From: Planctomycetota bacterium
Lineage (GTDB): Bacteria > Planctomycetota > Phycisphaerae > Sedimentisphaerales > SM23-30
Assembly (NCBI GenBank): GCA_029573975.1
Contig: JAKQBU010000438.1
Location: 1-15,420, forward strand
Length of the DNA: 15,420 nt
Reading direction: 5' to 3'
A program made the position numbers and the translations under genes. The stretch's first letter is position 1. The number at the start of each line of letters is the position of its first letter. This document shows positions 6,255 through 8,261 of this stretch, one piece after another. Below the pieces are notes generated by a model. The model was not told the origin of the DNA. It saw nothing but the letters and a program-made list of their open reading frames with translations, and ran no database searches.

Positions 6255-8261
6255 GTGATAGAATTCTGGCCGACTGGATTCGTTCATACCGTAAAAGAAC
6301 GGTGCCGCGTGTGTTATACCTGCGTCCGGGAATGCCCCGCCAAGGCGATCCGGATCGTTGACGGCCAGGCCGAAGTAATGCCGGAACGGTGCATCAGTTG
6401 CGGCAATTGCGTCCGGGTTTGCAGCCAGGGTGCCAAAGAAGTCGTCAGCAGTATCCGGCAGGTGAAGGAATTGCTCCGGTCCACCGAGTCGGTAGCGGTC
6501 TGTCTGGCACCCAGCTTTCCCGCTGAGTTCGCCGATGTGGATTATACCCGGCTGGTGGGCATGTTGCGGGCACTGGGATTTGCCTATGTCAATGAAGTAG
6601 GCTTCGGTGCGGACCTGGTCGCCCGCAAATACAAGGAATTGCTGGATACTAATTCCCAGAAGAATCGCTATATCTCCACCTCCTGCCCTGCGATTGTCGG
6701 GTATGTGGAGAAATATTATCCCCAACTGGTTCCCTCCCTGATTCCCGTGGTTTCCCCCATGCTGGCCACCGCCCGCGTTCTGCACCGCCTGCACGGAAAC
6801 GATTTAAAAATCGTGTTCGTCGGACCCTGCATCGCCAAAAAATGCGAATCCCTCAGCGAAAACACCCCGAATGAGATTGATGCGGTCCTTACCTTTTCGG
6901 AACTGCGGCAGATGCTTTCCGAAAACATACTGGACTCGTCCCAGATCAACCCCAGTGAATTCGATCCCCCCTATGCGGGTTCCGGCTCCCTTTTTTCCAT
7001 CAGCCGGGGGCTGCTGCAAGCTGCGGAAATCAAGGAAGATTTAATGGTTGGAGATATTGTGGTAACCGACGGACGGACCAATTTCGTCGATGCCATCCGG
7101 GAATTCGAAAATGGCAATCTCAACGCCAGACTCCTGGAAATCCTGGCCTGTAATGGCTGTATCATGGGTGCCGGGATGTCCGCTGAAACCCCGCTCTTTA
7201 CCCGCCGGTCCCTGATCAGCAGTTATGTCCGAAAAAAAATCGCCCGTAATAATCTCCACGTCTGGAAAAAAGCCATGCAGGATTTTTCCGACCTGGACCT
7301 GATGCGGCACTTCACTCCCAACGATCAGCGAATCCCCGTCCCCTTCGAGGAAGAAATCTCCTATATCATGTCCAAAATGGGTAAACGAAAACCCCAGGAC
7401 GAGCTGAATTGCGGCGCCTGCGGGTATGATACCTGCCGCGAGCATGCCGTCGCTATTTTTAAGGGCCTGGCCGAAAGCGAAATGTGCCTGCCCCATACCA
7501 TCGAACAGCTCCGCATGACCGTCAGCGAACTGGCCAGCTCCAATGAACAATTGGCCAATACCCGCGAAGCCCTCATGCAATCGGAAAAGCTGGCCAGCAT
7601 GGGACAACTGGCCGCCGGCATTGCCCACGAGGTCAACAATCCCCTCGGTGTCGTCCTGATGTATTCCCACCTGCTGCTGGAACGCTTCGGCAAAGAACCG
7701 CAAATGAGCGATGACTTGAAGCTGATTGTCGAGCAAACCGACCGCTGCAAAAAAATCGTATCCCAGCTCCTCCACTTCGCCCGTCAGAACAAAGTTCAGC
7801 TTCAGAAAACCGATATCGTTAAACTCATCGAGCGAATCCTGCAGGTTTCGCCTGCCCCGCCCGGTGTTACCGTCCGCCTCGATCAGGAAATTTCCGATCC
7901 GATGGTCGAAATCGACCCCGACCAGATCGCTCAGGTCCTGACCAATCTGATCAACAATGCCTGCTCCGCCATGCCCAAAGGCGGCTGCCTGCAAATCGTC
8001 ATTTCCGATCTCGGTAAACGCTTCAAAATCGAAGTGGCCGATCAGGGTATCGGCATCCCCCGCGAAAATCTGGGGAAAATCTTTGAACCGTTTTTCACCA
8101 CCAAGGAAATCGGCAAAGGGACCGGCCTGGGCCTGGCCGTCGCTTACGGAATTATCAAGATGCACCGCGGCGACATCCAGGTCGAATCCAACACCGACCC
8201 CGCCGCCGGCCCCACCGGAACAAAATTTTCCGTCATTCTGCCTAAAGAGGGCCGCCAGTGA
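6255..8261 (+). CDS. Histidine kinase with an [FeFe]-hydrogenase-like sensor domain
   Basis: 668 residues, no signal peptide or membrane segment, so cytoplasmic. Order: two [4Fe-4S] ferredoxin motifs (C17/20/23/27 and C46/49/52/56); an [FeFe]-hydrogenase-like domain (about 75-330) with L1 TSCPA (C144), L2 GPCIAKKCE (C192) and L3 LACNGCIMGAG (C299, C302); an FeS (PF04060-like) motif C386, C389, C394, C411; a short coiled coil (about 418-445); dimerisation/phosphoacceptor helix AAGIAHEVNNPL with H459; and a catalytic domain with N box NLINNAC, G1 DQGIGIP, F box EPFFTTK and G2 GTGLGLAVAYG. There is no PAS domain and no hydrogenase small-subunit tail. Start is GTG 6255 with GGAG 10 bases upstream; ATG-ATG-TCG-TGA at 6248 overlaps this start as GTGA. 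Inferred role: sensing H2 or redox state through an H-cluster-like site. Sensory [FeFe]-hydrogenases (groups C/D) are known; group assignment needs a tree. Confidence 0.93.
   Translation: MIEFWPTGFVHTVKERCRVCYTCVRECPAKAIRIVDGQAEVMPERCISCGNCVRVCSQGAKEVVSSIRQVKELLRSTESVAVCLAPSFPAEFADVDYTRLVGMLRALGFAYVNEVGFGADLVARKYKELLDTNSQKNRYISTSCPAIVGYVEKYYPQLVPSLIPVVSPMLATARVLHRLHGNDLKIVFVGPCIAKKCESLSENTPNEIDAVLTFSELRQMLSENILDSSQINPSEFDPPYAGSGSLFSISRGLLQAAEIKEDLMVGDIVVTDGRTNFVDAIREFENGNLNARLLEILACNGCIMGAGMSAETPLFTRRSLISSYVRKKIARNNLHVWKKAMQDFSDLDLMRHFTPNDQRIPVPFEEEISYIMSKMGKRKPQDELNCGACGYDTCREHAVAIFKGLAESEMCLPHTIEQLRMTVSELASSNEQLANTREALMQSEKLASMGQLAAGIAHEVNNPLGVVLMYSHLLLERFGKEPQMSDDLKLIVEQTDRCKKIVSQLLHFARQNKVQLQKTDIVKLIERILQVSPAPPGVTVRLDQEISDPMVEIDPDQIAQVLTNLINNACSAMPKGGCLQIVISDLGKRFKIEVADQGIGIPRENLGKIFEPFFTTKEIGKGTGLGLAVAYGIIKMHRGDIQVESNTDPAAGPTGTKFSVILPKEGRQ

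Follow-up and report, generated by a model that had tools for sequence, protein, structure and literature searches.

How does a hydrogenase-like domain pass its state on to a histidine kinase when no PAS domain stands between them? This question was raised by a stretch of 15,420 nucleotides from a Planctomycetota bacterium (contig JAKQBU010000438.1 of assembly GCA_029573975.1; hereafter the window), where a gene on the forward strand (6255..8261) encoded a fusion of a sensory [FeFe]-hydrogenase and a histidine kinase (SHK, BfuT-like). The reading frame ran from a GTG codon at 6255 to a stop codon whose last base was 8261 and gave a product of 668 amino acids, and its assignment was based on the frame itself, Pfam and an alignment of homologues. 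We consider it moderately probable that this protein is a soluble kinase, predicted to respond to H2 or redox state, that would signal through a phase-locked coiled coil, with an NAD(H)-linked hydrogenase encoded alongside. The sensor probably helps to control that hydrogenase.

Domain organization of the sensor

Pfam matched Fer4_10 at residues 14-56, Fe_hyd_lg_C at 79-306 (E 2e-49), the iron-sulfur (FeS) family PF04060 at 384-413 (E 4e-9), and a kinase core composed of HisKA at 449-511 (PF00512, E 3e-14) and HATPase_c at 554-665 (PF02518, E 8e-25). On the forward strand of the window these regions comprised two ferredoxin-type [4Fe-4S] motifs (C17-C27 and C46-C56; 6303..6422), the H-domain (6489..7172), the C-terminal [4Fe-4S] motif C386-x2-C-x4-C-x16-C411 (7410..7487), the HisKA dimerisation and phospho-acceptor domain (7599..7787, with His458 at 7626-7628) and the HATPase_c catalytic domain with its G boxes (7914..8249). 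In an alignment of 58 homologous rows, seven of the eight ferredoxin cysteines were invariant and C17 was kept in at least 90%. The H box, N box and G boxes of a HisKA histidine kinase were all present: H458, D596, G598, G600, G622, T623, G624 and G626 were invariant, and N564 and N568 were found in at least 90% of the rows.

The Pfam scan of the 668-residue protein gave no match to a PAS domain, and such a domain could be excluded between the FeS motif and the kinase because only 46 residues separated C411 from His458. A membrane-spanning stretch was unlikely in the sensor, since the top hydropathy over 19 residues was 1.6 against 2.67 in the MFS transporter of the window. Thus, the layout proposed in the earlier note was confirmed: a ferredoxin pair, a hydrogenase-like domain, an FeS motif and a kinase core were joined in one soluble protein without PAS, and the motifs that it had named (T142-S143-C144-P145-A146, C299/C302 and C386-C411) were all present. 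The same layout was kept in 21 of 21 rows of a homologue alignment, and each of 121 scanned proteins, among which the window's own appears twice, had the C-terminal motif, so this arrangement was not due to chance. Judged from its sequence, the sensor is a soluble kinase-type sensory [FeFe]-hydrogenase (BfuT-like), and kinase fusion itself has already been described in print (PMC11406978).

A heptad step in the linker

The putative coiled-coil signalling linker (residues 412-457; 7488..7625, forward strand) was delimited from spacing counts, leucine conservation and a structure model. Its length was compared in 200 sequences, namely the window, 119 other listed homologues and 80 loci; one reading frame (L127) lacked the FeS motif. 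The listed homologues were the best 120 database matches, 59-100% identical, the first of which was the window's own protein, and the loci were the best 80 of at least 580 confirmed stretches in the titled genome contigs scanned. Among 199 sequences the linker was 46 residues long in 184, 39 in 14 and unmeasurable in one, and the difference between the two lengths was exactly one heptad. Leucines 419, 426, 433 and 440 were kept in 72, 74, 75 and 76 of 77 loci, respectively. Four fusion proteins that were outliers in the tree (the second protein of L092 and those of L143-L145) also had the 46-residue linker. At least nine changes between the two lengths were needed on a FastTree phylogeny of the sensor part, a number that tree error could inflate, and the seven-residue change therefore seemed to be recurrent.

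Taken together, the two lengths and the leucine pattern are characteristic of an uninterrupted coiled coil in which phase is important. Phase-dependent coupling of this kind was shown for the kinase YF1 (PMC6798134). We regarded the linker spacing as the best evidence for coupling between the FeS domain and the kinase without a PAS domain. No discussion of linker length was found in the main-text passages covered by our literature search, a scope that also applies to the literature statements below.

Other distances in the protein were counted as well. The span from the first to the last FeS cysteine was identical in 199 of the 199 rows where the motif was found. There were 11 lengths between the H-domain motifs L2 and L3, 12 between L3 and the FeS motif (one of them an outlier) and six between the histidine and the G box. 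The RRHK linker had a single length in the seven rows parsed, too small a sample for it to serve as a control. In the structure model a helix extended from residue 408 to 438, with C411 near its start.

The H-cluster site and its shortened L3 motif

The three motifs of the H-cluster site were located on the forward strand. L1 (T-S-C144-P-A, 6678..6692), assigned by alignment, had Ser143 at the relay position. L2 (G190-P-C192-I-A-K195-K-C-E198, 6822..6848) kept the PCxxKxxE signature. L3 (E-I-L-A-C299-N-G-C302, 7137..7160), located by a homologue motif scan and alignment, was one residue shorter than the Cx3C of [FeFe]-hydrogenase H-cluster proteins. All four candidate cubane-ligating cysteines (C144, C192, C299 and C302), as well as K195 and E198, were invariant in the 58 rows, and K195 was present in 53 of 53 kinase-fused rows of a larger, 95-row alignment. 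The motifs were mapped onto CpI through printed alignments and the names of PDB variants (S357T, C299A), where we assumed the usual roles of the CpI cysteine ligands and of the L2 lysine.

The family pattern of L3 was E-x-L-x-C-x-G-C, one residue less than in group A. The Cx2C spacing to which the earlier note had drawn attention was found in the window and in 119 of 119 other listed homologues (119 of the 121 scanned entries by pattern and two by eye), and thus held family-wide. In the 95-row alignment, 52 of the 53 kinase-fused rows had Cx2C, while all 22 kinase-less rows of group C had Cx3C, as did a divergent hybrid, L159. These 22 relatives came from the window's phylum and were used as the comparison group in place of the TmHydS sequence; a Pfam scan of six of them gave a PAS match over the cut-off in three and a weak one below it in three. 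The sole kinase-fused row with Cx3C (CKGGC) was L096:1236-3281 from a WOR-3 genome, and it looked like a regain because it was nested in the Cx2C clade. Given this member, the L3 site seems to tolerate both spacings.

Two other explanations of the short motif were rejected. An alternative register, in which C298 and C302 form a Cx3C through CCxGC, was not general because a cysteine preceded the C299 position in only 90 of 120 proteins, while the window and 28 of the 119 others had alanine there and one had serine. A sequencing error was ruled out by the protein of the nearest genome (G001), which was 91% identical to the window's, and by 119 other database proteins. The Cx2C form of L3 was not mentioned in the literature passages covered.

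The earlier note was also right that L1 lacked the relay cysteine: 115 of 121 scanned proteins had S, T, P, A or N at the proton-relay position (the remaining six were not parsed), and the cysteine is likewise not conserved in the TmHydS type of group C (M2f). By itself this absence does not point to a different cluster, since TmHydS and TamHydS lack the relay cysteine and form an active H-cluster (PMC10055695, PMC8163306). A cysteine was reported at this position in 17% of sensory enzymes, in which the cluster-ligating cysteines were conserved (PMC10055695).

The shorter L3 loop would probably still bind a functional, if modified, H-cluster. The alternative that fared best, although we judge it rather unlikely, is that the loss of the L3 residue left the H-domain with a [4Fe-4S] cubane only, or with a cluster unable to bind H2, and that the sensor reads the redox state of the cell, and not H2, via its ferredoxin clusters. 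The universal Cx2C would agree with this, and ligand cysteines were lost in six of 19 related Bacteroidales rows, so that H-domain sensors without a canonical cluster probably exist; similarly, H-cluster motifs were described as hardly detectable in group C1 proteins of Hydrogenedentota (PMC11406978). However, the invariance of the four ligands and of the L2 lysine and glutamate counts against this explanation, the nested L096 suggests that both lengths are tolerated, and 14 of 80 loci had a HydF gene in the same orientation, 4.6-7.5 kb downstream from where the sensor gene starts.

Proposed signal transmission

In the H2/redox-responsive kinase that we favour, signalling would begin when H2 binding, or reduction via the ferredoxin clusters, changes the state of the H-domain cluster. 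The resulting shape change would be relayed by the PF04060 [4Fe-4S] domain, which would serve as a structural hinge and not as the redox switch, to the helix that begins at the last cysteine ligand of this domain. Rotation or supercoiling of the parallel coiled coil in the dimer might then switch autophosphorylation of His458, from which the phosphate would go to the neighbouring receivers. An inter-domain contact has been proposed for TamHydS (PMC13104023), and the conserved E407 and E409 by the last FeS ligand, together with R25 in the ferredoxin domain, would fit a contact of that type.

As far as can be read from the sequence, the ferredoxin, H-domain, FeS and kinase modules are complete, with four candidate H-cluster cysteines, a linker that varies by a heptad step, and a receiver operon. 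A broader proposal seems possible to us, and we offer it tentatively: in the large kinase-fused lineage, the loss of one L3 residue would have made a non-canonical H-cluster for signalling (with a shifted bridging cysteine, altered potential or altered ligand), and its state would be transmitted mechanically, without PAS or reduction of the C-terminal cluster, via a heptad-held coiled coil across many phyla.

Several observations weighed against our interpretation. Rigid spacing was not peculiar to the linker: four lengths were seen between L1 and L2, but 191 of 194 rows shared a single one. The predicted local distance difference test (pLDDT) score of the model was below 50 at residues 432-462, exactly where the coupling is claimed. 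The Cx2C motif differed from that of all 22 kinase-less group C relatives and of four PDB hydrogenases with printed alignments. No HydF match over the cut-off was found in 14 of 68 genomes and no such HydG match in 10 of 19, although these genomes are drafts. Moreover, the presence of HydF was not discriminating because 21 of 21 genomes tested carried another hydrogenase protein, and maturase co-occurrence was accordingly dropped as proof of an H-cluster. Finally, neither H-cluster binding nor an H2 response was reported for any family member in the texts searched.

The earlier note had treated C386-C411 as an extra cluster whose redox state could drive the kinase directly. The Cx2Cx4Cx16C motif is standard in groups C and D, where it is PAS that marks group C (PMC8163306), so there was nothing extra about it. 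The position of its last ligand, C411, near the start of the signalling helix and the presence of the motif in all 121 proteins would suit a direct role, but the equivalent cluster of TamHydS, a protein of another group without a kinase, was not reduced by 1 atm H2 and altering it changed catalysis little (PMC13104023). This undercut the idea, and we consider it improbable that reduction of the C-terminal cluster itself drives the kinase.

If the sensor is an H2/redox-responsive kinase, it would offer access to a question that is unsolved, namely how H2 binding is converted to a signal in sensory [FeFe]-hydrogenases; the two characterised ones, TmHydS and TamHydS, have no kinase in their own chain. 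With sensor and kinase in one soluble chain, effects of H2, CO and redox could be read directly as autophosphorylation. The heptad rule predicts that one inserted linker residue should break or invert the response. The conserved one-residue deletion in L3 is a natural experiment that probes the limits of change at the H-cluster site, and L096 with its Cx3C provides a natural control. What deserves attention in this system is the change in L3 throughout the family, the locking of the linker to heptads and the conservation of the receiver cassette, while the [4Fe-4S] motif is ordinary for this kind of protein and the fusion is known.

Distribution of the family

The sensor part was matched at E <0.001 by 7211 of 8000 scored candidates. 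The listed homologues, taken as the best of these matches, included proteins from Sedimentisphaerales, Phycisphaerae, Verrucomicrobia, Acidobacteria, Latescibacteria and Armatimonadetes. The titles of the loci named Planctomycetota, Lentisphaerae, Hydrogenedentota, Neomarinimicrobiota, Myxococcota, Calditrichaeota, Bacteroidales, Thermoleophilia, WOR-3, Melainabacteria and others. A match at E <1e-40 was present in 20 of 393 genomes sampled from the window's phylum, and in nine of these 20 it was at least 44% identical. In a quick tree of the 95-row alignment, the main fusion clade and its Bacteroidales sisters (68 rows) were split from the rest with a Shimodaira-Hasegawa-like approximate likelihood ratio test (SH-aLRT) support of 98. 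The four outlying fusion rows (L092's second protein and L143-L145) stood outside the main clade and also had Cx2C.

Operon and gene neighbourhood

The sensor gene lay in a one-strand run of NuoE, NuoF, HydA, receiver, sensor, receiver-kinase and receiver genes, all on the forward strand. It started with a NuoE-like subunit (HydC/BfuC; 185..688, PF01257) and HydB/BfuB, a NuoF-like subunit of 1090 amino acids that carries a fused glutamate-synthase-beta-like FAD/NAD(P) domain (675..3947, PF01512, PF10589, PF14691 and PF07992). These were followed by the catalytic [FeFe]-hydrogenase HydA/BfuA (3984..5708), which scored 826.5 bits with the NCBIfam group A6 model NF040763 (cut-off 765), and by a single-domain response regulator (5758..6150, PF00072). 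Downstream of the sensor there were a receiver domain fused to HisKA and HATPase by Pfam (8295..9452), the second kinase of a presumed relay, and a second single-domain response regulator (9570..9938, PF00072). Beyond 9938 we found the MFS transporter, then tRNA-Thr, followed by porin and HAD hydrolase genes. No DNA-binding domain was encoded by the window's receiver genes, and a scan for promoters and terminators stayed near shuffle level (9 against 6.9 and 14 against 14.2 in shuffled sequences).

Many of the 80 loci ended too early for a call. Of the 75 with enough sequence on the upstream side, 65 had a HydA homologue in the same orientation that started at most 2.6 kb before the sensor, and of the 71 with enough on the downstream side, 70 had a receiver protein there and 67 a receiver-kinase. 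Thus, the operon of NuoE, NuoF, HydA, sensor, receivers and receiver kinase was conserved across many phyla, and no description of it with its receiver cassette was found in the literature searched. Given its occurrence in numerous lineages of uncultured anaerobes, the cassette may be widely used to control fermentative H2 production. That the sensor is instead an accessory partner of HydABC, taking electrons from it or docking on it so that the kinase reports the state of the enzyme rather than dissolved H2, would fit the tight gene linkage but is very improbable, given the conserved kinase and receiver genes and the loci where the sensor had no HydA nearby (e.g., L104, where HydG and HydF followed it).

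The position of the receiver varied with the form of NuoF. In four loci where the long FAD-fused NuoF had a complete start, a single receiver preceded the sensor, as in the window. In contrast, a shorter NuoF match was present in 58 loci, and in these the receiver was after the sensor in 53, on both sides in one (L072), before it in one (L059) and not found in three; the NuoF match of both L059 and L072 was a fragment. Thus, the same sensor was paired with two kinds of catalytic module, with apparent swapping of the module between operons with FAD-fused and short NuoF. The sensors of the FAD-fused NuoF operons (the window, L060, L071, L105 and L114) formed no single clade in the quick tree.

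Another frequent neighbour of the operon, present in 44 of 80 loci (upstream in 19, downstream in 24 and on the other strand in one), combined CoA_binding and Put_DNA-bind_N domains in the one representative scanned, which we take to be the make-up of the NADH-sensing repressor Rex. This gene sat directly upstream of NuoE or directly downstream of the receiver-kinase. The Rex-like neighbour suggests joint control by NADH and the H2 sensor.

L1 of the window's HydA (3984-5708) read TSCSPGW, a motif shared by 22 of 66 sensor-adjacent HydA rows, in which a serine stands at the position of a cluster-ligand cysteine of CpI. It was not an anomaly, as the same motif occurs in Acetobacterium woodii HydA1 (7q4v) and was mentioned in PMC3787301 and PMC11406978.

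With respect to maturation, radical-SAM genes (HydE/HydG type in the one representative scanned) were present in 38 of the 80 loci. G001 had HydF over the cut-off, while its HydG match was a contig-end piece below the cut-off. The Bacteroidales genomes of L117 and L121 (G477 and G478), which may be incomplete, had five H-domain matches each and neither HydF nor HydG over the cut-off. Their sensor-adjacent HydA had altered L1 and L2 motifs (ISACPAW or VSACPAW, and PCTAMK).

Kinase-less sisters and divergent members

A sister family of about 620 amino acids (L081, L125, L124 and other Bacteroidales loci) was encoded some 6.5 kb upstream of the sensor and in most cases in the opposite orientation. 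None of its 19 proteins had a kinase box near the FeS motif, and Pfam on three of them gave one weak PAS match, below the cut-off. The L2 lysine was absent in 19 of 19; L3 was Cx2C in 13, its first cysteine was lost in five, and L124 had neither the L3 cysteines nor the L2 cysteine. Judged from these losses, the sister H-domains appear to be decaying or re-purposed. A SpoIIE phosphatase gene (one representative scanned) lay near the sister gene in 19 loci. In three Bacteroidota a second bfuT was reported upstream of bfuC (PMC11406978), and the position of the kinase-less sister gene upstream of the operon fits this second bfuT.

L159:1450-4242 encoded a very divergent hybrid with an H-domain, FeS motif, HisKA, HATPase and two receivers in one chain, a Cx3C motif and no PAS match. 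Direct kinase coupling may therefore have arisen more than once, although the long branch leaves the placement of this protein unsure.

Comparison with known systems

The closest published descriptions concern BfuT, whose group C3 label we took over from PMC11406978 for like proteins. According to the relevant parts of that paper, there are two types of group C3 BfuT, one with PAS and one with a histidine kinase, in clusters of sub-types IV and V, and kinase-fused BfuT beside bifurcating hydrogenase genes was reported for Hydrogenedentota, Calditrichota and Bacteroidota. As an H-domain sensor with a fused C-terminal histidine kinase, downstream of bfuA in a BfuABC cluster, the window's protein corresponded to the kinase type. 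BfuT of sub-type V (HydDB hit WP_006928132.1) is likewise such a fusion, directly downstream of HydA/BfuA (PMC11406978), whereas in the window a response regulator stood between the two genes. Moreover, BfuB of sub-type V BfuTABC lacks the FAD/NAD(P) fusion, while the window had the 1090-residue form with PF14691 and PF07992; the cluster was not filed under sub-type V because this FAD-fused form is given for sub-type I (PMC11406978). L3 spacing, linker length and receiver genes of BfuT were not discussed in the parts of PMC11406978 consulted, and the kinase fusion was not described in those of PMC8924675, PMC11803613, PMC9563086 and PMC9304861.

HydDB groups C1 ('histidine kinase-linked') and C3 ('phosphatase-linked') also comprise putatively sensory [FeFe]-hydrogenases that are associated with signalling modules (PMC5037454). 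Kinase-fused and PAS-type BfuT were both assigned to C3 (PMC11406978). Among our loci, the kinase-less Bacteroidales sisters lay near a SpoIIE phosphatase gene. Group C1 genes were reported near separate kinase genes (PMC8542988, PMC6163223).

TmHydS of Thermotoga maritima (group C, M2f) was described with two ferredoxin clusters, an H-domain without the relay cysteine and the Cx2Cx4Cx16C motif C-terminal to the H-domain, all as in the window's sensor, but it differs by a PAS domain after the FeS domain, and its ligating cysteines were stated to be conserved (PMC8163306, PMC10055695). TamHydS of Thermoanaerobacter mathranii (group D, M2e) has the same set of clusters and no PAS, like the window's protein, and was predicted to form a homodimer whose protomers lie parallel to each other along the C-terminal helix (PMC13104023). 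It carries no kinase in its chain and is flanked by a histidine-kinase-like gene instead (PMC8163306), whereas in the window's sensor the kinase core (residues 449-665) was fused to the same polypeptide.

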